Source: Saccoglossus kowalevskii
Taxonomy: Eukaryota; Hemichordata; Enteropneusta; Harrimaniidae
Assembly (NCBI RefSeq): GCF_000003605.2
Contig: NW_003116447.1
Coordinates: forward strand, 1,162,102 to 1,196,805
Length of the DNA: 34,704 bases
Reading direction: 5' to 3'
Shown here: positions 6,932 through 34,704 of the stretch, piece after piece
Numbering within the stretch: the first letter of the stretch is position 1
Layout of the letters: every line of letters starts with the position of its first letter
The notes under the pieces: generated by a model
Databases searched by the model: none
Seen by the model: the letters and a program-made list of their open reading frames with translations, nothing else
Told to the model about the DNA's origin: nothing
Made by a program: the position numbers and the translations under genes

Positions 6932-20927
<13,996 letters not shown>

Positions 20928-22504
20928 TTTGAATATTGTATTACCTCATTCTTCAACTCAAATTTCTATAAATACAAATATTTGTATTCAATATATTTAC
21001 TTAATTTTATAAACGATTGTTTACATTTTTATGATCTATCATATATAACCACAGGATGAAAATGTTATGTTTCTTATACTTATTAGGATGATTTACCTGT
21101 AGGTAAATATTGAGTGTGAACGAGGATGTATACCCTTTGACCCCTTTCCAACATGGCGCACTATTCAAAGGAGGTCACCAATCCATATAAGTACATACTA
21201 TAATTTACTTTGTGTGAACTGTTTCTACTTTTGGTGAGTATAAATTGAAGTTCGGCTATTTGTGATAACCATCTGTAGTGACACAGTGTATAACGTTTTA
21301 ATGAGGCGCGGACAGTACGTTTTGACTATAACAATGAAAGGTATGTCAAGTGAAAATAGCACTGACAGTGACATATTGCATTGATCTTTGACATAATGGA
21401 AGGGTCATGGCTGCGCATTCGTGGCCTCGGCTCAGTTTAGGGAAGACTGTCGTTGATGTTATGGATCGAACTGCTCAGGTGAACTAATACTCCCTGTCAA
21501 TCTGCCGTATATGTATTATGTGATTGAATGAACTTGTAGTCTCTGTGTCTGGTTATGTACCATTATGTTAGAGGGGGTGTTACCTACGTGTTGTCGTTGT
21601 TTGGCGTCGTATTATATCCGGGCTGGTTCTCTTCCAGAACGTATTCAGACCCAAATGACGTGAATAATAATAGTATGTTTTAAACCATGTATCTGACTTC
21701 GATTTCCGTTTTTTTCTGAACATTAACAGAAAGTTACAAGGAATAATGGATTACAGTAGAAAACTGCACAATGGTTTTTCAAAGAAGTGATTAGACATTT
21801 ATGAAAGGTAAAAATAGTGTTGACTGATACATTTTTACAGCACTCTGTTTTCAGAACTGTATCTCAGGCATACCTTGACTGAGTCTCTTCAGACTTTGCA
21901 CATATTTAAAACCTAGTCTGTTACATATGTATGTGTAATGAATTTGTGATTAAATAAAAGATGGCCGAATGATGACCATTTTAGTTGTAAAAATACACTA
22001 TAATCAGGTATTTTGACATGTTTGGTCGCATGGCCAGGTCTCTGGCATGTTTTGACCGATTTTCTGCAATTTTGGTGGAAGGAGTAACCATTACTAGGGG
22101 TTTATTCACATCACTTTGATTTGTAAAGTCTATTCATGATTGCTACCTATCAGGTCCCTCAAGTACTGCATCATTATTCCGGAAGCTATAAAATAGTAAT
22201 GTAAAATTGCATGCACAGGACTAGGAGCTAAATTGTACTGAAATGTGTATTGTTTTGAGACTGAACACAAATAAAGTATGTGCTTCAGTGCAATGCAAAA
22301 TGCATGTTTTTATTCTAAAATTAAATTTGTGCTTTATAATTGTGATTTTTTTGACAACTTGATCTTTCTGATAAAATAAAACTAGAAAAAACTGCTCAGT
22401 AATACTTGTGATGACTTAAAAGATGATTGGTTTCCCTGGGTTTAATTGTTGAACAGCTTTATATCAATAATAATATGTATGTGTTTTGCAGAGTTACTAA
22501 GATA
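20928..22504. promoter_or_regulatory. Head-to-head intergenic and 5' UTR region between YIPF3 and RFWD3
   Basis: The two start codons face away from each other across about 1.6 kb. A YY1-like CCAACATGGCGCAC lies at about 21148-21161. The segment 21295-21480 is locally GC-richer (GAGGCGCGGACAG; GTGGCCTCGGCTCAG) and likely holds the RFWD3 transcription start and a non-coding first exon. The rest, an RFWD3 5' UTR intron under this model, shows nothing recognised. Shared control of the two genes is inferred from layout only. Confidence 0.5.
21407..21478 (+). other. RFWD3: Candidate RFWD3 5' UTR exon end with upstream reading frame
   Basis: An ATG in good context (GTCATGG) opens 24 codons (MAAHSWPRLSLGKTVVDVMD...) up to a donor CAG|GTGAAC at 21479. 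Spliced to the acceptor at 22490-22491 the frame stops after two more codons (Ser-Tyr-stop), upstream of the main ATG at 22505. It would then be a 26-codon uORF rather than an N-terminal extension. A different donor or acceptor could change this. Confidence 0.4.
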
Positions 22505-23053
22505 ATGTCAATGTCACTGTATGATGATGTTATGGAAGTTGATCTCACACTGAGTGACAATGATGACACCGATGATGATGATAGAGTAGTTGAAATCAAT
22601 ACAGTACATGATAGTGATGAGACAATATACGACAGCGACAGTGGGGATGATGCTGTCTTGGTGGATGCTCGATCTCAGTCTTCATCAAGACTTCAACCAA
22701 ATAGAGTACCGGAGCAACAGCAAAATGAAGACAGCGATGAGACGATTTCCTTATTTGGTGATGATGATGATACTGGGGATGATGAAGTTCTGGAAGTCCC
22801 AGGGACAGCCTCTCAAAATACTGTCCAGTCTAACCAAGTGGAACGTGCTAGCCCAATTCCTCCATCAGTTTCACAGTCTGTAATCACTGAGAACAACCCG
22901 TCACAATCGCAAGATGAAAGCCAATCAGTTTTACAGGAGACAGAAAGACCAAGTACCAGCACTCAATCGGTAAACAGAAGAGAATCACATGAGCATTTCT
23001 CATATCATTTACAAATTGGTAATACTTATCCGGAATTCCAAAGTCCCTTGATG
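22505..23053 (+). CDS. RFWD3: RFWD3 exon 1 (coding): acidic, SUMO-interaction-like and SQ/TQ-rich N-terminus
   Basis: The acceptor GTTTTGCAG ends at 22491; the first ATG after it, at 22505, starts [25 protein letters not shown] followed by an Asp run is SIM-like, and human RFWD3 has SVDLTEVE in its N-terminal part. Two further acidic patches follow (about residues 36-54 and 75-97). Seven SQ/TQ sites fall at residues 57, 103, 123, 133, 135, 139 and 153. The donor chosen is TTGATG|GTAAAT in phase 0; an earlier one at CAATCG|GTAAAC, also phase 0, is possible. Without splicing the frame would stop at 23102. Confidence 0.8.
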
Positions 23054-26000
23054 GTAAATGATTCACATTATACAGTGTTTGGCAGAAACCTGGGAACATT
23101 ATAAACGTTTTTATAAATATATAAAATTTTATAAATTTAAAATAATGTATTTACAAATATTTATAATACGTGTATAAACGAATGTTTCTGCTGCACACCA
23201 TATTTTACATGCTATACATACTAATTTATAGTGATAGTAAATTGTAGCTGAATTCATTCATGGGTAAATGATTTGTTTACACACTCAAAGGCGAGGTAAT
23301 TAACACACTAGATGAGTTTCAAGTTCCCATAGTTTTTTATGTTATTGAGTAGGCTCACGACAGATATTGTTTGGCGGGGGGTGTCTCAGCTTTGTCAGAT
23401 TTGAATGGACATACTAGTACTTGTATGTTGTCATCAGAGACATCTTAGAAATGTGGTGGTGTATGAATGAATACAAAAACTTGTTTTCCTCATTTTATGA
23501 AAATTTCGGTACAAAACTTATGTTGGTATAGTGAAATATCTGCTGAAAACTGCATATTCTTTCTGGCCAGAAGTGAATTAATGCCAGTTTGCACAAAGGT
23601 ACATGTAGCTTTATTATTGTTGTCTAGATCTCGAAGAAATATACTTCCCAAAACCATTCACATACATGCATGCTAGTACGCTACTAGCTAGCACCGCGCT
23701 GTGTTTTTAGTTCCGCTGTCGACTTGTCGAGCGAAGCTTATCATATGAGTGATTGTCCGTCGTTGTCCGTGTCAATCTTTTACTTTTTCGACTCCTTCTT
23801 GAAAACTACAAGACTGAATGCTTTGATACTTGGTGTATATGTACCTTGGGTAGACCTCTCTCAGATTTGTTCATTTCATGATGATATCTTCAATTCTCTT
23901 ATTTTGGTGAATGTTTTTGTCAATTTTGGTAAAATGTGATATTTTTGACTTCTTGTTAAAAACTGCAGGTCCAATTGCTTTGATATTACATATATAGGTA
24001 CTACATGTGGCCCTCTCTCAGATTTGTTCATTATCTCAGCCAACAGGCTGTTTGTTTAAATTCTTACCTACTTTGAAACTGAAACAAAAGGTTTCTATTC
24101 GCCGATAGAATAACATTGGAACATTCAAATTACATCATTGCACACTGCGCTCATTGATTGGCTGATTGACAAGAAGCAAAAACAGTATGTGCAACTGCAT
24201 CAGAAAGAAAATCACAAACCTGACCATGAGAAAAGTGTACTGTAACAGAGATGGGAACATAGTGCTTGTACATGTACTTCAGAATGCTCACTCGTTATTG
24301 TTATTGTGGAATATGCAAATTGATTACTGATTCAAAATAGATCTTAAACTAGCTATTTCTGAATATTTCTACGTTTTGAGCAAAGTACTGAGTAAATTTG
24401 AATCAGTGTTAAATTTGTGAATAATTATGAATGCACACATAACTAGAATATCCACATTAGTGAATGAAATCGTACAAGAGTGTTGGTATATAAAACGTTC
24501 TAAAAGTAAACATGTCATTTCGCTGTTTTAACTCTTTAGTATTGGTTCGTTATCGAAAATGAGTAAAATATTGCGAGTCAAAACATTGGTTTTGTTATCA
24601 GTATTGATACTGATCATGTGTATTATCAACTCTAGCAAAGTTTTTGAAAAGTGATATTTTTTTTACCCGTCTCAAAAAATAAGATGGTCAAAAGATATTG
24701 TGTGATGTTGTTCGATTAGTGCACCTAAAATAATAGGAGACCATGAATACCAGAGTTCCTCATATAATATTCATATTTTGATAAAATATTGCCACCGAAA
24801 GAGCTTAAAGTAGCATCTGACATCATTGATAGACGATTATCTAAATTCCAAACTAGTTTGCAACTTAACAATAGGTTTATCACTCTTCCATTTAAAGTGC
24901 CATAGTCTCAGCACAGCAGGGAAACCATATTTTACATGCATTATAATTGCATTGCAATTGTTGACCTTAGTTGATGTATTCAATTGAAAAAACATCTGGT
25001 AATAGTGAATAATTAACATGCATATTTTTCAGGTCTCTGTTGGCAACAGATCTGCCAATACTAGTCTTCAGATGCCTGTGGTGAATCCATCTGCCAATGC
25101 CAGTTTTCAAACATCAGGACAGAACAGAACTGTCTCTACTACCAATAGTATTCAAGTGCCTGTAGCCTTTCAACTCGCTAATACCAGTTTGGCTGCCGTA
25201 AATCCATCTACCAGTGTTCGTGTGCCAGTTGTGATCCCATCTGCTGGTGTTGGTGTGCCAGGACTCGACCCATCAGCCAGTGTGCTAAGAGTGAACCCAT
25301 CGACCAGTGTTAATTTGCCCAGAGGAAACTCATCTGCCAGCGTTAATTTGCCCAGAGGAAACTCATCTGCCAGCATTACGTTGCCAGGAGGGAACTCATT
25401 TCCCAGTGTTAGTATGCCAGGAGTGAATCCATCTGCTGCAATCACATTGCCAGGAGAGAACCCATCTACCAGTTTTAGTTTGCCTAGAGTAAACCCATCT
25501 GCCAGTGTCAGCATGCCAGGAGTGAATCCATCTGCCAGTGTCGGTGTGCTTGGAGTAAACCCATCTGCTAGAATTACTGTGCCAGGACTGAACCCATTTT
25601 CAAATGTTACTTTGCCAGGAGTGAACCCATCTGCTGGTGTTAGTTGGGCAGCAGTGAATCCATATTCCAGTGTCAGTTTGCCAGGAGCAAACATATCTGC
25701 CAGTATTAGTTTTCCAGGAGTGAATCCGTCTCGAATTGTTACTTTGCCAGGATTGAATCCTTCTCCAATTGCTACTTTGCCAGGAGTGAATCCTTCTCCA
25801 ATTGCTACTTTGCCAGGAGTGAATTCCTTGTCTAGTGTTACTTTGGCAGGAGTGAATCCTTCTCCAATTGCTACTTCGGCAGGAGTGAATCCTTCTCCAA
25901 TTGCTACTTTGGCAGGAGTGAATCCTTCTCCAATTGCTACTTTGGCAGGAGTGAATCCTTCTCCAATTGCTACTTTGCCAGGAGTGAATTCCTTGTCTAG

Positions 26001-29000
26001 TGTTACTTTGGCAGGAGTGAATCCTTCTCCAAGTGTTACTTTGTCAAGAGTGAATCCTTCTCCAAGTTTTACTTTGCCAGGAGTAAATCCTTCTCCAATT
26101 GTTACTTTGCCAGGAGTGAATTCCATGTCTAGTGTTACTTTGGCAGGAGTGAATCCTTCTCCAAGTGTTACTTTGTCAAGAGTGAATTCTTCTCCAAGTT
26201 TTACTTTGCCAGGAGTGAATCCTTCTCCAATTGTTACTTTGCCAGGAGTGAATTCCTTGTCTAGTGTTACTTTGGCAGGAGTGAATCCTTCTCCAAGTGT
26301 TACTTTGTCAGGAGTGAATCTTTCTCCAAGTTTTACTTTGCCAGGAGTGAATCCTTCTCCAATTGCTACTTTGCCATTAGTTAATACTACATCTGCGGTT
26401 ACATTGCCAGGAGTGAATCCTTCTCCCCATGTTACTTTGCCAGAAGTGAACCCACCTGGCAATGCCAGTTCACAGGCACAGACAGAAAACCAGTCTGCCA
26501 ACTCTAATATCAGTCTTCTACAAACATCATTCCAGTCACCAAGTGATTTCAAACAAGTGAATTCATCAAAGAAGGTTTTATCTCCTGAAAGGGACGATGA
26601 AGCAGAGGTGAGTCACAAAACACTGCCACTATCACTATCATCACTACCATCTCGTAACTACTGCCACTATCATAACTGCCATCTCATAACAACTATCACA
26701 GCCATCTCATACATGTATCCACTGTCTCTATTGTCAATGCCATCGTGCACTGCCTACATGTATTTGTATCTATATCTAATTTAAATATACTTTGATTCAT
26801 TACAGTGCTGCCCCATATGTTTTGAAAACTGGACCAATTCAGGAGCTCATCGTCTAGCTTCCTTAAAATGTGGACACCTTTTTGGACAAAGGTTTGTTAA
26901 ATACTTTAGTGGCCTGATATCTAACATCACGTGGCAGTGAGGTTGAAATCTAGGTGACTGGCTACTGAGGGTATACAAGCATCTTCTGTCTTCATCATTA
27001 CTCAACCAATCAGAAATGTTTTACTTCTAAATAGATGTAGTGCAACACTTTATAATTAAAGAACATGTATTCTGATTGGCTATTGCGAAATTGTGAGTGT
27101 ACATGTACCAGTATGTGTGGCTTTCACAAAAAACCAAAACATTAGTGGGAAAAATTGTTTTAATCAGTTTTTAAAAGTCTGTATCTATTGAATTCAAATC
27201 TTTTTCCATCCCCCAGCTGTATTATGAAGTGGTTGAAAGGTCGGGGTGGAAAATGTCCACAGTGCAATGCAAAATCAAAAAAATCTGAAATCAGAGTGAT
27301 CTATGCTAAAGCAGTGAGAACAATGGACACAGCAGAAAGAGACAGGGCGTTGAAGGATTTGGAGATGGAAAAAGAAGTGAGACGGAAATCTGAACTTGAA
27401 GCAGCACAGCTAAAGATGCAGTATCAGTTAGCTATGGACGAATGCAATAGACTGAAAGCACAGTTACATTCACAGGACAGAGTGGGAATGTAAGTATAGA
27501 CTGAAAGCACAGTTACAATCACAGGACAGACTATGTACATTACAAATATGTTCAAGTTCATGGAGAAAGCACTTTGAATTCAACACTGGTGTTGAGACAG
27601 CCACACTAATCTTTATGATGTGATGTGATGCGATATGACTGTTGCAATCTTGCGATTGGCAGACTTGTGGCGAGGAGTGCAGACCCATTAACCTTGACTT
27701 TATTTCTAAACTACTGTTATTGTTTCAGGGCGGGTCCATCTACGTACACTGGTGCATCATGTAGTGGTATTAGTAGCAGCAGTCAGCCATCACATAAGGG
27801 AGGAGCCTATAAATTGGATAAAACTATACACATATCTCCAGTAAGTAGTTGTCACATCTTTGAGTCATGACTGTGTGTAAGGGACGACGTCAAAAGATCG
27901 ATGTCGGATAAAAAACTTACTGACCTCAAAAAGTTTCCATCCTACAAAAACGATTTTATTTTTTAATGAAGTCAAAAAAATTTTGGAGTATTTGTAGTTC
28001 GTTTTTATTCTATCCAATCATGGACAGAAATAACCGAAAAGGGAAAAAAACCCCAGAAAAATGGTTTGGTTCGAGTGTAAATCTGTGCGTCAAATGAGGT
28101 GCATTTGTAAAATCTTTTTACACCCACCCGACAACCAACGTCTATGCAATACTACTGTCCGATTATCAATTTGTATTTAATGGTAAATGTAGTCTGACGC
28201 CATGACCAATATTTATCAATTAAGTTTCAGTGGGGGGTAGGGGGGTTTGGAAAAAAACTAAAGGAATTAAGTTTTTTATCCGACATCGATCTTTTGACGT
28301 CGTCCCTAATCTCAGCACAACTTTGACCTAATTCTTTACTATTTCATATTTTTGTAGAATGGTGGTTGTCGTGTTATGGCTTATAACCCTACCCAGTATG
28401 CACTTGTCCTTTCTATGCCGTCTCCAAATCAGCTGTTTCCAGGTCATGGCATCAAAAAGGTTTGTCATATAAAGTTTTAAGCATGAAAGTCATATTTTAA
28501 TGATCCTATCTACATGTACAAATACATTTGTGTTTTTGAGTCCATTTTATTGGAAATGTGCTTGCAAAAAAGCGAATCTGGTAAATTAAATAATTTTTAT
28601 TCTTCCTTGACTGATAGGGATTTTGTCATGCTTAGCCACAGAAATGCCATGCTTGAACATTCAAAAGACAACTTACATATGCAAATTTGTTATTATGCAA
28701 ATTAACCACTGCTTGGACCCATCACTAATATTGAGAATTGCACTGTGTAATTTTTTGTTATTTTCAGCTGAGTATGATGGATATGAAAAGTAACCAGTAT
28801 GTGACAATTCATAGCAAAATGTTGAGAGATTGCTGTTTTAATAATCGCCAAGATGGTTTGTTACTTACTGCTTCTGTGGATAAAACTATTAAGATTACAA
28901 GTCTTCTTAGCAATACAGTTGTACAAACGTAAGTCGTAATATCTTATATATTACAAGCACATTTTTAGTCCCCATTTCAGGCACAGCCTGAAAGGTGACT

Positions 29001-32000
29001 ATTAATTCTTATTTCAATTTCCCGTCTGTGACGTCTCTAACATTTTCTCAGAAATTCTGCAGCAGATATCGATGAAACTTGACAGGTTGATGACAGGCCG
29101 ATTATGCACGTAATTTTTTTTGCCAGATCTGAGAATCCTAATTGGGTCTTTTCCATGATTTTCATCCAAAACTACCTCTCCCTACTGCACTGAGAGAACA
29201 ACTGAGCATGCTCAGAATAAATAATTAGCTTAGATTGTAATGCTAGGATTTTAGTGATGTCATGACCTTGATCTGAATCGTACCATTACCAATCTCAATA
29301 GAAAATGTAGAGGGGTGTCAGGACTACATTTTGATGGGAATTATAGTGGTGATACTGAAACAAACCCAGGTCCTGGTAATATACAAAGACCTGAATTAAC
29401 AAAGAAGTCAAGTTGTTATTAAAGGTACATCAAGGTTTACTTAGATTTATGAATGCAGTTTCTTGAGCATGTATGAGACATAGTTTGGTTGCACTTGTGT
29501 ACTCTGAGATTTTGGACCCGGGTCGATGAAAGTTTCCAGTTATCAGATTAAGGGAAATCACTTTATGATGAGTTGTACCCGCATAGAGTACATATTAATT
29601 CAATTGTTTGCAGATGTTCCATGTATTATTTTAACATGAGGATTTTATAATTAAATAACGTAGACTGTGACATTCATGTCTTATTTATGTAATACTGTAT
29701 TAGGAGATACCTTGTCTTGTTTTAGAGGGTAATATTTTTCAGCTACAATACATTGTCCAGGGCAATGTTTTTTTTATCACATTTTCAATTCCTTATATCC
29801 TAAAAACAATAGTCGTGACAAGGCTTGCAAGATATCAATGATATTATCGTCAGTATTCTGTTGATACATATATTAAACACAATTGGATCTTGATGCAGCT
29901 ATTTTGTTTTAAAGAATGCAGTTCTGGATCCATATATCAGACATGCCTAACCCAATAAAGTTTAAACTTCACACTTACATCAAACATCTTATCAAACAAA
30001 TGCATATGCGAAATGTCTGAATGGCTGACTTGAACTCATCTTGTTTAAATTAATGCAGTTCCACAAAGCCATGTGTCAATCATGCCTGGATTAATCAAAC
30101 TTCACACATGCATCACATATCAAGTTATACATCTTGCACCTATAATACATACAAAGACTACTGTAAAGGGGGTAATTATTCACTGGGTTTTAATTTAGCT
30201 TATTTCGCTGACTGGAAAAATGCGCTAAATTAAAACACAGTGAATATGTAAAATTTAGCATAGAACACATTATCTAAATGACGAAACCGTGAATTTAAAA
30301 CCCACTGAATATGCCCGAAATGGTAAATCAGTGAAATTTAAACCCAGTGAAAATTAGTCATTTTACAGTATGTCATTGACAGTGACTTGTTTTTACCAGA
30401 TATGCCTGTCAAGTACCTGTATGGAGTTGTGCATGGAACTTGGATGATACAAACTATGTATACGCTGGCTTGCAGAACGGGAGCATAGTCATGTATGACA
30501 CAAGAAATACTTTAACACAAGTAGCTCAGTTTAACAGAGATGGTTCTCGATGTCCAATTGTGTCTTTACAATACGTTGAGAATGACATCAACTCATCATT
30601 CAAGTAAGTTCGGCAGTCGTCGCGCCGCATTCTCTTTGATATGGGACTGATAGCAACGTATACAGCGCGTGTAAAAAACATTGTTTATTTATATGAAATT
30701 CGAACACGCACTGCGCGACGACCACCACGCTTTAAGGTCATATTCTGGGCAATGTTCAAATACACTTTATAAGAATGCAGAATGCAAGAGATATCTGTAG
30801 ACTTTATGGTGAATTGATCAATGGTGACCACCATTCATCTCCTATCTTGCCTTGAATTAATCAATTTGATTGTTGATTTAATTCTTATAAAAGAAACCTT
30901 AACACTATAACAACTTGTATGCTCATTTATTATATCCTGTGTCACAAAAGTTATATGTTTTTCACTTAAGCCCTTGATAAATAAAAATTTATCCTCACAA
31001 GGATTTGACTGTGATCCTGATCTTTTCACTGTGTATTAGGGCGTGTGGTTTGCTGACAGGCTCGTTGGAAGGTGTTCAATTCTGGGAGAAGAAAGCTGCA
31101 GCTGAATATAAACCCCATATCCTGCCACTGGAAGGTATGAATCATATCGTCAGCTTCACATCTGCTGTGAATTTTAAGCTTAAAGGCCCAGGTATACTGT
31201 ATTTATCCGGGTATAAGCCCAGGGTCCTGAACATTGAAAATCGCCAAAATGAAGGGGTGGGCGTTTGTCCGGATATCCCCGGCAAAAAAACAAAAAATCG
31301 CGAAAATTGGCAACACGCAGATCGAACTGCGACAAGGGGTAAAACGACAAATAAAAACATGCAACAAAAATAAATGAACAATATGCAGCATTAGAAGGGT
31401 ACCAAGAAATAATTTATTGGTTAGAATGTGACAAATATTAAAACCAGAAATAATAAAAATCGACAAACACGCCGCCCCATACAGGTTTTTTTCCAACGAC
31501 AGAAGAATAATTTCCATAAAATGCAATAGCTGTGGTGAAACATGGTAAAAAAGTTGGCAGTCTTCGGCGTGACATTGCAAAATTGCTGGCCCCAGTTATG
31601 GATTCGCAAATATTTTATAAAGCCAAAACAACGTGCTTTAAACCACTCTCCCAGGTACGGGTTGCTACAATATTGCAACATTAGTTTCATTGTCGGCGAC
31701 GCTAAAGCCGAACGAGTGCGACACTTGCTTCGGGGCTCTCTATATACTGTAAGATTTGCTTGAATCGTTTCTATAAGGAAACACAAACCTAACGGCCCTT
31801 TTCAGGGCCACGACGTATTTCAAAAAAAGAACTACCGTTTCTCCTTTAATATAACATTTTTTTGACTCGCTGGCTGTTATGTTTCTGATAAAAAATCTTG
31901 AAAAAATAAATGTAAACTACGTAAACAGTGGTGAACACACTGCTCTATTTATGTCACAGTTATTTCGCGTTCACTCCTTGTTTTACGCAATTGACATTTA

Positions 32001-33796
32001 TTTTTTAAAATTTGGTTATCAGAATCACAACAGACTGCAAGGAAGTAAACTGTTAATACAACGAATAAAAATAGTTTTTTTTTTTAAATTTTATTACAGG
32101 TGTAGAAAAAACACCCCTGGGTGTTTGCTAGGATATGACCTCAACTCCTTTATTTTATCAAAAGTGGGGGGGTGGGCGTTTGTCCGGGCATGGGCTCTTA
32201 GCCGGATAAATACGGTACTATAAATACGCTCCTAAACAATAGGGATTATTTCCTTGGTTGTCATGCTGTAGTAAACAGCTCCAGCCAAGCTCCAAACTTA
32301 CAGGTCGATTATGTCGTGCCAAAGTGGATGCATGTGACTATGAATATCACAGCAGTGACTGTGTAGTATTTATGACGATAAATAGTGTACGAGCTGAGAT
32401 TTTGGCGGATAAAAGCCAAAAACACGAACCGGGGAAAGAGACGCGCTACTAATCTTGAATAATTAACTACTGTCAATCAAAGTCATGTGATGTTGGACTG
32501 CAAGTGATTAACAACACTCATTAGCATAGCCACACCTCCACTTCACACTGGGCCTTTAACTACTTTCCTTAAGACCTACATATATGGCTGCTTTATGATG
32601 CAGGGACAGAAAAAGAGATTTTTCATATCATAGAGTCTATGAATCGTTATCATAAGCATGGCTTCTTCACAATCACGTTGTACTAACTACAAATCCTCAC
32701 CCCTGCCCCTGGCTCTTAGTAAGTTTCTGGGGATGCAAATTTACTTTCAATGAGAGTTCCTAATTTTACTTCTCTCCCCTCCCAAATCCAACGAGCTGAT
32801 CAAGTTCAAAAACAGTTAAACATGACAAAAATACCTCTAGATATTACCAGGATTTGTAACTTTTCAAAGTTCATGGTTGAGGTATATTATTAAAATGAAT
32901 GAAAACTTTAAAAATCAAGAATGTACTTGTATTGTCGTGGTTATGATTGTATTTTTCAGGTAGTTGTACGTATGTTTCATTTGAACGCACAACCAGACAC
33001 TGTATGGCATCATTCAGGCCAAATAAAAACCATCCATTCATCAAACATCTGGTAAGTAATATAATACTGATTTATTACCACTCAGTACTGTAAAATGCTG
33101 GCCGATTTTGAATCTTTCCTGTATGTGCCATCTCAGACTGCTTGAGCAGAGCTGCTGAATGGAATACTGTGACAGCAGTTTGTGTTTTTTGTGTTCAAGT
33201 GGTTTCAGGTATTTCACAAAATACCATACATAATACTGTAAAATCTGTATTAGAAGCTGTGGCTTCTATTAAAATGGTAGAATGCAACACAGGGGATGTG
33301 GTTTCTATTAGAGCATCTACACATATGAGAAATGATGAATTTTTGGTACTCAATTATTCAAAAAAAATGAGTGCGACTTCTATTGGGGATGCGGTTTCTA
33401 ATGCAGCATAGTACTGTAGATCAACAAATGTGCAATTTCATCCCAAATCATCTATGTTGTACGTCAATTTGTTACCAGTATTCAATAGAACAGTTCTATA
33501 TGGATTCATCTTTATAGGGCAGGGAATAAGAAAATATCGCTGACTTTCGATTTCACTTGCATACAGACTTTATCTGAGCTTTCTTGAAGTTATATATATT
33601 CTATGTTTGATTGTAGATGTGCGAGTTACAAAGTAGGAGTGGTGATTGTATCAGCTCGTCAACGTGTTCCTCTAATACAGTACAGACATTCTACGGGGGC
33701 TCCACTATGAAATTACTGACACGGTCAAGACTGTTTGCCAGTCCTCTTGGGAGTGGTCAGGTGTTGGCATGTGCAGGGGATGAGTCAAGTTTATCT
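22505..33796 (+). CDS. RFWD3: RFWD3, RING finger and WD40 E3 ubiquitin ligase (eleven exons, 3' end beyond window)
   Basis: RFWD3 (FANCW in human) ubiquitinates RPA, RAD51 and other factors at stalled forks and crosslinks in the nucleus and is phosphorylated by ATM/ATR (known family facts). Exons: 22505-23053, 25033-26607, 26806-26891, 27217-27489, 27729-27840, 28358-28459, 28768-28928, 30400-30603, 31040-31134, 32960-33051 and 33617-33796. All have GT/AG borders and compatible phases, giving 1143 residues so far. Order: acidic SQ/TQ-rich N-terminus (1-183), an 11-residue tandem repeat region (239-654), RING (about 710-753), coiled coil (about 775-823), then the WD40 region to the end. The last part (about 60 residues in human, ending in the final WD blade) is not in the window. 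Human RFWD3 is about 774 residues; the excess is the repeat exon. The junction of exons 1 and 2 is the least certain. Confidence 0.93.
23054..25032 (+). other. RFWD3: RFWD3 intron after coding exon 1
   Basis: Contains a hairpin-headed repeat at 23709-24055. The rest is AT-rich, with no conserved exon recognised, though a missed small exon cannot be excluded. Confidence 0.55.
23709..24055 (+). repeat. Hairpin-headed dispersed repeat, family A copy 2
   Basis: The head is AGTTCCGCTGTCGAC TT GTCGAGCGAAGCT, followed by TATCATATGAGTGATTGTCC and a GTCC tract. The body matches copy 1 (1764-2326) closely, for example ACTACAAGACTGAATGCTTT and TTGGTGTATATGTACCTTGG. The tail is CAGCCAACAGGCTGTTTGTT. It has fewer internal units than copy 1. 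It sits in an RFWD3 intron in the sense direction. Confidence 0.75.
25033..26607 (+). CDS. RFWD3: RFWD3 exon 2: 525-residue tandem-repeat exon
   Basis: The acceptor CATATTTTTCAG precedes 25033; the donor GCAGAG|GTGAGT follows 26607. It starts and ends in phase 0. After an Asn/Ser/Thr-rich lead-in ([20 protein letters not shown]) it encodes about 38 units of 11 residues, then an Asn/Ser/Gln-rich exit and SPERDDEAE leading straight into the RING exon. The first part varies ([22 protein letters not shown]); from about unit 18 the units are close to [11 protein letters not shown]. No cysteine or charged core is present, so it is probably an extended or disordered linker with many Ser-Pro sites. 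I know of no such repeat in vertebrate RFWD3. The frame is open throughout, arguing for selection on coding. Confidence 0.85.
25198..26445 (+). repeat. RFWD3: Coding minisatellite, 33-bp period
   Basis: 1248 bp of 33-bp units, except one 27-bp unit early in the array. The 5' half is diverged; the 3' half is nearly homogeneous at DNA level, with GTGAATCCTTCTCCAATTGC recurring. Units 25-36 form three copies of a four-unit (132-bp) higher-order repeat. Because the period is a multiple of three, an antisense frame of 460 codons is also open across it. Confidence 0.95.
26806..26891 (+). CDS. RFWD3: RFWD3 exon 3: first half of RING
   Basis: The acceptor TCATTACAG precedes 26806 and the donor CAAAG|GTTTGT follows 26891. 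It reads [20 protein letters not shown] and then KCGHLFGQ. It aligns with human [26 protein letters not shown]-type sequence. Zinc ligands visible are C710, C713, C730 and H732; the position that is Cys/His in classical RINGs after CGHLF is Gly here, as I recall it is in human RFWD3. Confidence 0.96.
26892..27216 (+). other. RFWD3: RFWD3 intron 3
   Basis: 325 bp of AT-rich intron ending in a pyrimidine-rich acceptor (TTTTTCCATCCCCCAG). Nothing else is seen. Confidence 0.7.
27217..27489 (+). CDS. RFWD3: RFWD3 exon 4: second half of RING and coiled coil
   Basis: A Ser codon split across the intron is followed by [20 protein letters not shown], giving the last ligands C738, C750 and C753. Then comes a charged heptad-like helix with [20 protein letters not shown] and [20 protein letters not shown], the coiled coil that in this family lies between RING and WD40. 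The donor GGAAT|GTAAGT follows 27489. Confidence 0.96.
27729..27840 (+). CDS. RFWD3: RFWD3 exon 5: linker to the WD40 domain
   Basis: The acceptor TTGTTTCAG precedes 27729; the donor TCTCCA|GTAAGT follows 27840. A Ser/Gly-rich linker ([19 protein letters not shown]) leads into [11 protein letters not shown], matching the human YHFQKTFTVS strand that opens the WD40 region. Confidence 0.9.
27881..28306. mobile_element. PIF/Harbinger-like MITE, 426 bp, TAA target duplication
   Basis: Begins GGGACGACGTCAAAAGATCG and ends with the reverse complement CGATCTTTTGACGTCGTCCC. The inverted repeat is perfect for at least 36 bases (27881-27918 against 28269-28306). Both flanks are TAA (27878-27880, 28307-28309). 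A 3-bp TWA-type duplication with G-rich ends is typical of PIF/Harbinger. The inside has no reading frame. It sits in RFWD3 intron 5, about 40 bases after a donor and 50 before an acceptor. Confidence 0.9.
28358..28459 (+). CDS. RFWD3: RFWD3 exon 6: WD40 strand block
   Basis: The acceptor TTTTTGTAG precedes 28358 and the donor AAAAAG|GTTTGT follows 28459. Its 34 codons in phase 0 start [20 protein letters not shown] and end LFPGHGIKK. It matches human GNCRIMAY ... SFLPGFGVK. Confidence 0.95.
28768..28928 (+). CDS. RFWD3: RFWD3 exon 7: WD40 repeat with DKTIK
   Basis: The acceptor TTATTTTCAG precedes 28768 and the donor CAAAC|GTAAGT follows 28928. It encodes [20 protein letters not shown], then [28 protein letters not shown] is a clear WD-repeat D-strand (human SLDNTIKLTSL), and NTVVQT is identical to human. 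Confidence 0.97.
28967..29170 (+). repeat. Hairpin-headed dispersed repeat, family B
   Basis: After a T run it starts AGTCCCCATTTCAGGC ACA GCCTGAAAGGTGACT, a stem of about 15 pairs with a 3-base loop. Then come CCGTCTGTGACG and GATGAAACTTGACAGGTTGA. It has the same plan as 1764-2326, 23709-24055 and 33940-34704 but its own sequence. The right boundary is approximate. Confidence 0.6.
29880..30120 (+). repeat. Decayed relative of the right-edge repeat (family C)
   Basis: TTTTGTTTTAAAGAATGCAG and TTCTGGATCCATATATCAGA, with GACATGCCT and AAACTTCACAC, match the corresponding words of 34320-34400 with scattered differences. Two partial units can be seen. No hairpin head is recognisable here. Confidence 0.6.
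30159..30370 (-). mobile_element. MITE with TACTGTAAAA terminal repeat, copy 2
   Basis: The full 212 bp is the reverse complement of 11321-11529, with a few substitutions. It runs from TACTGTAAAGGGGGTAATTA to CTAATT-rich inverse sequence ending TTTTACAGTA. Agreement of both ends between the copies fixes the element boundaries. Confidence 0.85.
30400..30603 (+). CDS. RFWD3: RFWD3 exon 8: WD40 repeat
   Basis: The acceptor TTTTTACCAG precedes 30400 and the donor TTCAA|GTAAGT follows 30603. It encodes [20 protein letters not shown], then [11 protein letters not shown], a canonical WD-like repeat. It matches human [32 protein letters not shown]. The second half reads [10 protein letters not shown], like human RCPLVSLSYM. 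Confidence 0.97.
30604..31039 (+). other. RFWD3: RFWD3 intron 8
   Basis: Contains a small inverted repeat (GTCGTCGCGC near 30617 and GCGCGACGAC near 30713) enclosing about 100 bp, possibly a tiny MITE. Otherwise nothing. Confidence 0.5.
31040..31134 (+). CDS. RFWD3: RFWD3 exon 9: WD40 repeat
   Basis: The acceptor GTGTATTAG precedes 31040 and the donor GGAAG|GTATGA follows 31134. It reads [20 protein letters not shown] and ends HILPLE. It matches human GVLAGTLEDASFWEQK ... HVLPLE. Confidence 0.95.
31193..32222. mobile_element. Inverted-repeat element of about 1 kb (TACTGTATTTATCCGG ends)
   Basis: Left end TATACTGTATTTATCCGGGT, right end GCCGGATAAATACGGTACTA: imperfect inverted repeats of about 25-30 bp. 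The block GGGGTGGGCGTTTGTCCGG occurs near both ends in the same orientation. The inside has only short frames without known domains, so it is non-autonomous. It lies in RFWD3 intron 9. Confidence 0.6.
32223..32959 (+). other. RFWD3: Remainder of RFWD3 intron 9
   Basis: No repeat or gene recognised. It ends in the acceptor TATTTTTCAG. Confidence 0.6.
32960..33051 (+). CDS. RFWD3: RFWD3 exon 10: WD40 repeat
   Basis: The acceptor ATTTTTCAG precedes 32960 and the donor CATCTG|GTAAGT follows 33051. With the split Gly codon it reads [21 protein letters not shown] then [10 protein letters not shown]. It matches human [25 protein letters not shown] in position and pattern. Too short for the reading-frame list; placed by splice sites and homology. 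Confidence 0.95.
33052..33616 (+). other. RFWD3: RFWD3 intron 10
   Basis: Carries a MITE at 33234-33418. Nothing else is recognised. Confidence 0.65.
33234..33418 (+). mobile_element. MITE of the GCTTCTATTAAAATGGTA family, near-complete copy
   Basis: Starts TACTGTAAAATCTGTATTAG, then AAGCTGTGGCTTCTATTAAA, and ends GGTTTCTAATGCAGCATAGTACTGTA-like sequence that is roughly the inverse of the start. It matches 10990-11118. The open frame across it is not a gene. Confidence 0.65.
33617..33796 (+). CDS. RFWD3: RFWD3 exon 11: WD40 repeat (last exon in window)
   Basis: The acceptor GATTGTAG precedes 33617 and the donor TTATCT|GTAAGT follows 33796. It encodes [20 protein letters not shown], then [20 protein letters not shown] and [14 protein letters not shown]. 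It matches human VHTFFGGPTCKLLTKNAIF ... LVCTGDEA. The open frame runs on to 34378 only because the following repeat lacks stops; the donor and the loss of similarity mark the true end. Confidence 0.95.
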
Positions 33797-33939: not shown

Positions 33940-34704
33940 AGTCCCCGTTCGGACGCAGTCCGAAAACGGGGACTTATGTTTTGCCCTGTGTGCGTCCGTC
34001 CGTCCGTCCGTCCGTCCGTCCGTGATCACCTGTATCTCGAACATGCATGGACCGATTATATTCAAACTTCACTCATGCATCACACATTATATGGGACATA
34101 TGCACATGCATTTTTTTCATGATCCGATTAACGATAGCCGAATAGCGGCCATTTTAAGGCCGAAAATGCATCAAAATCGCACATTTTCACCATTCCGGAC
34201 CCGGATCTCAGTTATGCATGGACGGATTTCATTCAAATTTGGTACATACATTAAACATAATAGGACCTTGATGCACGTCATTTTTTTTTTTTGGATCGGG
34301 TTCGAAATGGCCGACTGGCGGCCATTTTGTTTTAAAGAATTCAGTTCTGGATCCGTATCTGAGACATGCTTGGATTGATCGAGTTCAAACTTCACACACA
34401 CAAGGTACATCATGTCACAAATATGTATGTGCATTTGTTTCATGATCTCATTAACGATAGCCAAATGGCGGCCGCTTTAAGGCCGAAAATGCATTGAAAT
34501 CGCACATTTTCACCATTCCGGACCCGGATCTCAGTTATGCATGGACGGATTTCATTCAAATTTGGTACATACATTAAACATAATAGGACCTTGATGCACG
34601 TCATTTTTTTTTTTGGATCGGGTTCGAAATGGCCGACTGGCGGCCATTTTGTTTTAAAGAATTCAGTTCTGGATCCGTATCTGAGACATGCTTGGATGAT
34701 CGAG
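33940..34704 (+). repeat. Hairpin-headed dispersed repeat, family C, running off the right edge
   Basis: Starts AGTCCCCGTTCGGAC GCA GTCCGAAAACGGGGACT, then TTATGTTTTGCC and a (GTCC)n tract at about 33987-34023. The body has repeated units with ATGCATGGACGGAT, TTCATTCAAATTTGGTACAT and GGCGGCCATTTTG. From about 34152 a unit is repeated 322 bp later with near identity to the window end. No coding potential. It lies in the last visible RFWD3 intron. Confidence 0.8.
33987..34023 (+). repeat. (GTCC)n microsatellite
   Basis: About eight GTCC units directly after the repeat's hairpin head, in the same place where the other hairpin-headed repeats carry GTCT or GTCC tracts. Confidence 0.85.

Follow-up and report, generated by a model that had tools for sequence, protein, structure and literature searches.

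The 34,704-nucleotide (nt) window analysed here (Saccoglossus kowalevskii, contig NW_003116447.1, positions 1,162,102 to 1,196,805; all coordinates below count from the first letter of this stretch) holds a gene for the ubiquitin ligase RFWD3 in which an 11-residue tandem repeat precedes the RING; the modelled protein has no lysine in residues 1–689 and 32 in the following 454. We propose that a translated 33-nt coding minisatellite, expanded in place before the RING, lengthened a lysine-free tail that would evade lysine self-ubiquitination, a proposal drawn from sequence in which our confidence is evenly balanced. An earlier note on this DNA had described an in-frame array of about 38 such units at 25198–26445, inside one exon and spliced in phase to the RING and WD40 exons of RFWD3, and had remarked that it would set the RING far from the N-terminus. 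This description stands: there are exactly 38 units in a single exon, the joins are phase 0, the downstream exons are those of RFWD3 by Pfam and by structure 6cvz, and the Cys of the RING motif CPICF is residue 710 of the modelled protein. Neither the lysine desert nor a cluster of Ser/Thr-Gln (S/T-Q) motifs in exon 1 had been raised.

Joining exons by GT–AG splice sites and frame gives a gene on the + strand from 22505 to 33796 with 11 exons and 1143 codons, free of stops (exons have GT–AG ends, the end of exon 7 having been moved one base to reach a GT). We regard its identity as RFWD3 as settled: in a Pfam search WD40_RFWD3 (PF23419) matches with E 5e-118 and 394.7 bits (cut-off 47), the RING ahead of the WD40 domain is matched by zf-RING_UBOX (36.6 bits, cut-off 25.2) and zf-C3HC4 (34.3 bits, cut-off 21), and the RING–WD40 part matches the human RFWD3 structure 6cvz with E 2.9e-86. 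Because the WD40_RFWD3 match covers model positions 1–289 of 337, the gene should run on past the window, where the next 10 kb on the 3' side are all N. Exon 1, the array exon and the RING exon are each entered in phase 0. In the whole assembly (572 Mb, 4830 contigs) RFWD3 was found once, with two matches at E ≤ 0.001, both to its own exons; no second allele, paralogue or processed copy reached that threshold among the 15 candidates scored, and tblastn found no homologue in other genome contigs among 19 pattern matches. Viral contigs gave one match, to WD40, covering 39 residues of the query (E 1e-4).

By the criterion of at least 150 lysine-free residues, the modelled protein contains a lysine desert of 689 amino acids (aa), the first 238 of which precede the array; lysines restart just ahead of the RING (Table 1) and continue in it and beyond. 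The desert is not a mere lack of positive charge, since arginine is present in it: the Arg:Lys counts are 19:0 within the desert and 23:32 after it (Fisher P 2e-6), and still 10:0 in the part of the desert outside the array (P 9e-4). For these 273 non-array residues the codon-position composition predicts 13.2 lysines where none is found, and every one of 20,000 shuffles contained lysine. Of the 20 residues, lysine ranks lowest in z (-4.3) and alanine next (-3.5), and arginine, at 10 against 12.0 expected (z -0.7), is not depleted. Cysteine, with none in the desert and 22 after it, is only mildly below expectation (z -2.0).

The array is composed of 37 units of 33 nt (11 residues) and one of 27 nt (9 residues, 25264–25290), and because the latter is the sole change in length the frame is kept; a 39th unit immediately downstream was scored as a diverged relic and stands outside the 38. 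The 33-nt period was also returned by Tandem Repeats Finder (25376–26450, 32.6 copies, score 1058). The array sits on the N-terminal side of the RING, following an acidic part, and does not separate the RING from the WD40 domain. The consensus peptide of the young units is nearly uncharged, rich in Ser, Pro and Val and without lysine or cysteine, and all but one of the 38 eleven-residue units, the relic counted, have Asn as their second residue. Identities between units (Table 1; the 9-residue unit was left out of these counts) suggest that the N-terminal half of the array is old and the C-terminal half mostly young, and within the latter three 132-nt blocks of four units (25984–26379) share 94.7–97.7% identity with one another. 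Because diverged relatives of the unit occur on both flanks (at 25081 and 26446), the array most likely grew within the exon, expanding in place from a unit already present there; for comparison with these relics, 20,000 random 33-mers taken from other parts of the window matched the old-unit consensus at no more than 61% identity.

An origin as a dispersed repeat or mobile element is not supported, as searches of the assembly gave no strong match to the array elsewhere. At E ≤ 0.001 the array protein found 10 matches, of which 8 are in its own array and 2 are weak (E 5.3e-4 and 6.7e-4) on contig C4407, and an exact 20-base pattern from the array occurs six times in the assembly, each time within the RFWD3 array. 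The C4407 segment (C4407:150873–151539) is a different 11-residue repeat, with a unit like VNLKPVQTEPC and a lysine in nearly every unit. A mucin-like match to the array exon (PF16058, E 2.7e-5; 24.9 bits against a cut-off of 28.7) was put down to composition.

The array is likely translated as part of RFWD3. Over 25291–26445 the frame that joins the RFWD3 exons is free of stops, against 29 and 13 in the two remaining + frames; one of the - frames is open as well. A codon-usage score trained on the RING–WD40 exons against introns ranks the exon-joining frame best of six in all six stretches scored (exon 1, the parts before and after the array, the whole array and either half of it). Among units 1–17 the ratio of nonsynonymous to synonymous differences per site (pN/pS) is 0.70 over all pairs and 0.675 against the consensus (null 1.06 ± 0.23, P 0.0135), and in units 18–38 it is 1.26. 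Another minisatellite in the window, of 33/65-nt period at 12020–12459, is interrupted by 5 to 15 stops in whichever of the six frames it is read.

A number of observations weigh against the proposal. Selection on the units appears weak, and pN/pS discriminates coding frames poorly in this case because a wrong + frame gives a lower value (0.56) than the frame that joins the exons (0.70); freedom from stops in the 16 full units among units 1–17 arises by chance in 22% of simulations. In the array, zero lysines against 6.0 expected would be significant if codons were independent (P 0.0012), but the units are copies, so that a series of lysine-free units weighs little more than one, and within the array a lack of lysine looks no different from conservation of the unit. 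When exon 1 is taken by itself, depletion is stronger for alanine (z -4.5) than for lysine (z -3.8). The frame upstream of 22505 stays open as far as an acceptor-like site, so the N-terminus may differ from that modelled, and a lysine may precede the desert if translation begins upstream. Finally, Ser and Thr are abundant in the desert tail, and proteins with lysine deserts can carry ubiquitin on other residues (PMC10665810, PMC10169902); ubiquitination of Ser, Thr or the N-terminus, as reported for other desert ligases, would bypass the lysine desert.

Under our proposal, one could envision the ligase held on RPA-coated DNA by its WD40 domain, RPA32 being bound by WD40 domains of the RFWD3 family (PMC6851490), with the RING presumably acting alongside. 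A long flexible tail with the S/T-Q cluster would then sweep past the loaded E2 with no lysine on offer, leaving self-ubiquitination to the lysines in and after the RING. The tail is probably disordered, and we infer its protection from self-ubiquitination, as we do the translation of the array as a part of RFWD3. Because the unit codes for a lysine-free peptide, growth of the array would have extended a tail that was already lysine-free, and any further length, past the desert as such, may be neutral. A further step, that the unit was amplified because it extends a tail that the protein's own RING cannot ubiquitinate on lysine, with the S/T-Q cluster as a tethered signal at the far end, we consider doubtful.

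Other explanations, not all of them exclusive of this one, could account for the array. It may be a neutral coding minisatellite, translated but without effect of its length or content and tolerated in a little-constrained N-terminal region of RFWD3; we hold this to be possible, on the unlikely side, and it overlaps our proposal, which leaves length open. It would be in keeping with the pN/pS of the young units (1.26), with the near-identical blocks (94.7–97.7%), which suggest recent block duplication, and with the poor conservation of the pre-RING region among seven animals (PMC7056982), and is opposed by the lysine depletion outside the array and by the weak constraint in units 1–17, neither of which shows that length matters. 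Splicing could also omit the array exon, whether constantly or in certain tissues, to give a shorter RFWD3. The exon is symmetric (phase 0-0), so that skipping it would preserve the frame; however, its acceptor and donor are consensus-like, codon usage is best of six in the array and its flanks, and the frame is open, a point that is weak alone given the chance rate for units 1–17, and we thus regard skipping as improbable.

We give equally little credence to an elastin-like, self-associating segment (containing Pro and Gly, mildly hydrophobic and nearly uncharged) that would aid the formation of condensates by the ligase. The array has 19 Pro-Gly (PG) and 14 LPG, a charged fraction of 0.029 and a mean hydropathy of +0.33, and in being a PG-containing repeat of low charge it presumably resembles elastin-like polypeptides, from which it differs in having an 11-residue unit within a ligase, so that no homology is claimed; the idea rests on composition, and the array's best hit among solved structures (E 0.81) was rejected as chance. 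An error of assembly in the number or order of near-identical units is conceivable for units 17–36, whose nearest other unit is at 94–100%, but the diverged units 1–16, 37 and 38 anchor both ends and frame and splice phase are preserved, which makes such an error very improbable. At least as hard to credit, and the faintest of these possibilities in our judgement, is a switch operated by multisite phosphorylation of Ser-Pro. The earlier note had counted roughly sixteen Ser-Pro dipeptides in the array as possible CDK or MAPK sites, and the count holds (16 in the array, 18 in the whole exon), but there is little to support the kinase assignment: all 16 depart from the consensus forms tried (S/T-P-x-K/R, S/T-P-x-x-K/R and P-x-S/T-P), Thr-Pro is absent from the array, and the number of sites may simply track copy number. 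CDK or MAPK sites were accordingly dropped as the principal interpretation of the Ser-Pro dipeptides.

Lysine-desert ligases are a known kind, and human RFWD3 is already a member, Kampmeyer et al. 2023 (PMC10169902, Table 1) giving its desert as 258 aa or 33.3% of its length; the new part is a desert built from a repeat. Like human RFWD3 (Q6PCD5), the protein modelled here has an RFWD3-type WD40 domain, a RING, a lysine desert and N-terminal S/T-Q motifs; the desert here is longer, at 689 aa on the model, and mostly 11-residue repeat, where the human stretch is presumably non-repetitive. Szulc et al. 2023 (PMC10665810) regard the pairing of a lysine desert with a lysine cluster as typical of RING ligases, 12 of 14 human E3 ligases having both, and in several RING ligases, RNF6 and RNF12 among them, the lysines are concentrated in the RING (PMC10665810). 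RNF6, RNF12/RLIM and RNF111 share with the present protein a long lysine-free stretch (527, 477 and 663 aa, respectively), but they belong to a different family, here marked by the WD40 domain, and here the desert is mostly tandem repeat. If the model is true, its lysine-free stretch is longer than any E3-labelled entry in the published human table, where RNF111 at 663 aa is the longest (PMC10169902), although the entries there had passed a sequence-complexity filter, which keeps 689 against 663 from being a like-for-like comparison; the deserts of BAG6 (950) and AMBRA1 (693) exceed it (PMC10169902). Lysines added to deserts raise the ubiquitination of some proteins, BAG6 and RAD23A being named, and lower the abundance of UBQLN1 and BAG6 (PMC10169902). 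The minisatellite would offer a natural test, as units could be added, removed or made lysine-bearing without touching the RING. If the unit was amplified for the doubtful reason given above, repeat expansion would be a way to lengthen a lysine desert. In the open-licence literature, judged mostly by title, we found no description of a repeat linker in RFWD3, nothing there contradicting the earlier note's view that such a linker is undescribed, and in that literature no paper joined a lysine desert with a tandem repeat and intrinsic disorder.

The seven S/T-Q motifs of exon 1 fall within 97 residues (57–153). In residue shuffles their number has P 0.040, and their clustering P 0.006 for a span of 100 aa and P 0.002 for one of about 50 aa. 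The N-terminus of human RFWD3 has two S-Q sites, S46 and S63 (PMC7056982), and N-terminal S/T-Q sites are reported as missing or not conserved in other animals. Drosophila Mus302, the fly RFWD3 (PMC7056982), which like the present protein is an orthologue with RING, coiled coil and WD domain, is reported without the human ATR S-Q sites, in contrast to the seven S/T-Q motifs here. The motifs are thus a reason to reopen the reported non-conservation rather than proof of phosphorylation; if they do act as such a tethered signal and the source is taken as non-mammalian, the S/T-Q sites of RFWD3 would not be a mammalian novelty. A match of exon 1 to MSP1a (E 0.079, 12.7 bits, cut-off 27) was rejected as chance.

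Table 1. Features of the RFWD3 gene and its repeat array, in window coordinates.
Feature	Coordinates	Strand	Basis or identity
First RFWD3 coding exon; 183 aa, acidic, no lysine, 7 S/T-Q at residues 57–153	22505..23053	+	start codon inferred
RFWD3 exon holding the array; 525 codons, symmetric (phase 0-0)	25033..26607	+	splice sites, frame
Diverged upstream unit, likely seed relic	25081..25113	+	76% identity to old-unit consensus, 79% to downstream relic
Units 1–17, apparently older	25198..25752	+	nearest other unit 76–85% for 1–16, 94% for 17
Units 18–38, apparently mostly young	25753..26445	+	nearest other unit 94–100% for 18–36, 73% for 37, 88% for 38
Diverged downstream unit	26446..26478	+	70% identity to old-unit consensus
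Stretch ahead of RING; first lysines (690, 696, 697), acidic end	26548..26607	+	sequence
RING exon, first part	26806..26891	+	gene model, Pfam
RING second part and coiled-coil region	27217..27489	+	gene model, Pfam; coiled coil by family (PMC7056982)
Exon 5, linker to WD40	27729..27840	+	gene model
WD40 exon	28358..28459	+	gene model, Pfam, 6cvz match
WD40 exon	28768..28928	+	gene model, Pfam, 6cvz match
WD40 exon	30400..30603	+	gene model, Pfam, 6cvz match
WD40 exon	31040..31134	+	gene model, Pfam, 6cvz match
WD40 exon	32960..33051	+	gene model, Pfam, 6cvz match
WD40 exon, last in window; N beyond window	33617..33796	+	gene model, Pfam

Head-to-head with RFWD3, on the - strand at 12547–20970, lie the exons of a neighbour that we take to resemble YIPF3; a Pfam search of five open stretches of this neighbour returned nothing above cut-off. 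Positions 14176–14430 read N. Two calls fall within RFWD3 introns on the + strand: a match to the histone 3' untranslated region stem-loop model at 31789–31834 (35.1 bits, gathering threshold 34, E 1e-06), and an ARAGORN tRNA-Gly call spanning 96 bases at 29498–29593, which is likely spurious. At the end of the window, 33940–34704 consists of a CGTC run followed by two long near-copies, as judged by eye, that resemble a dispersed repeat.

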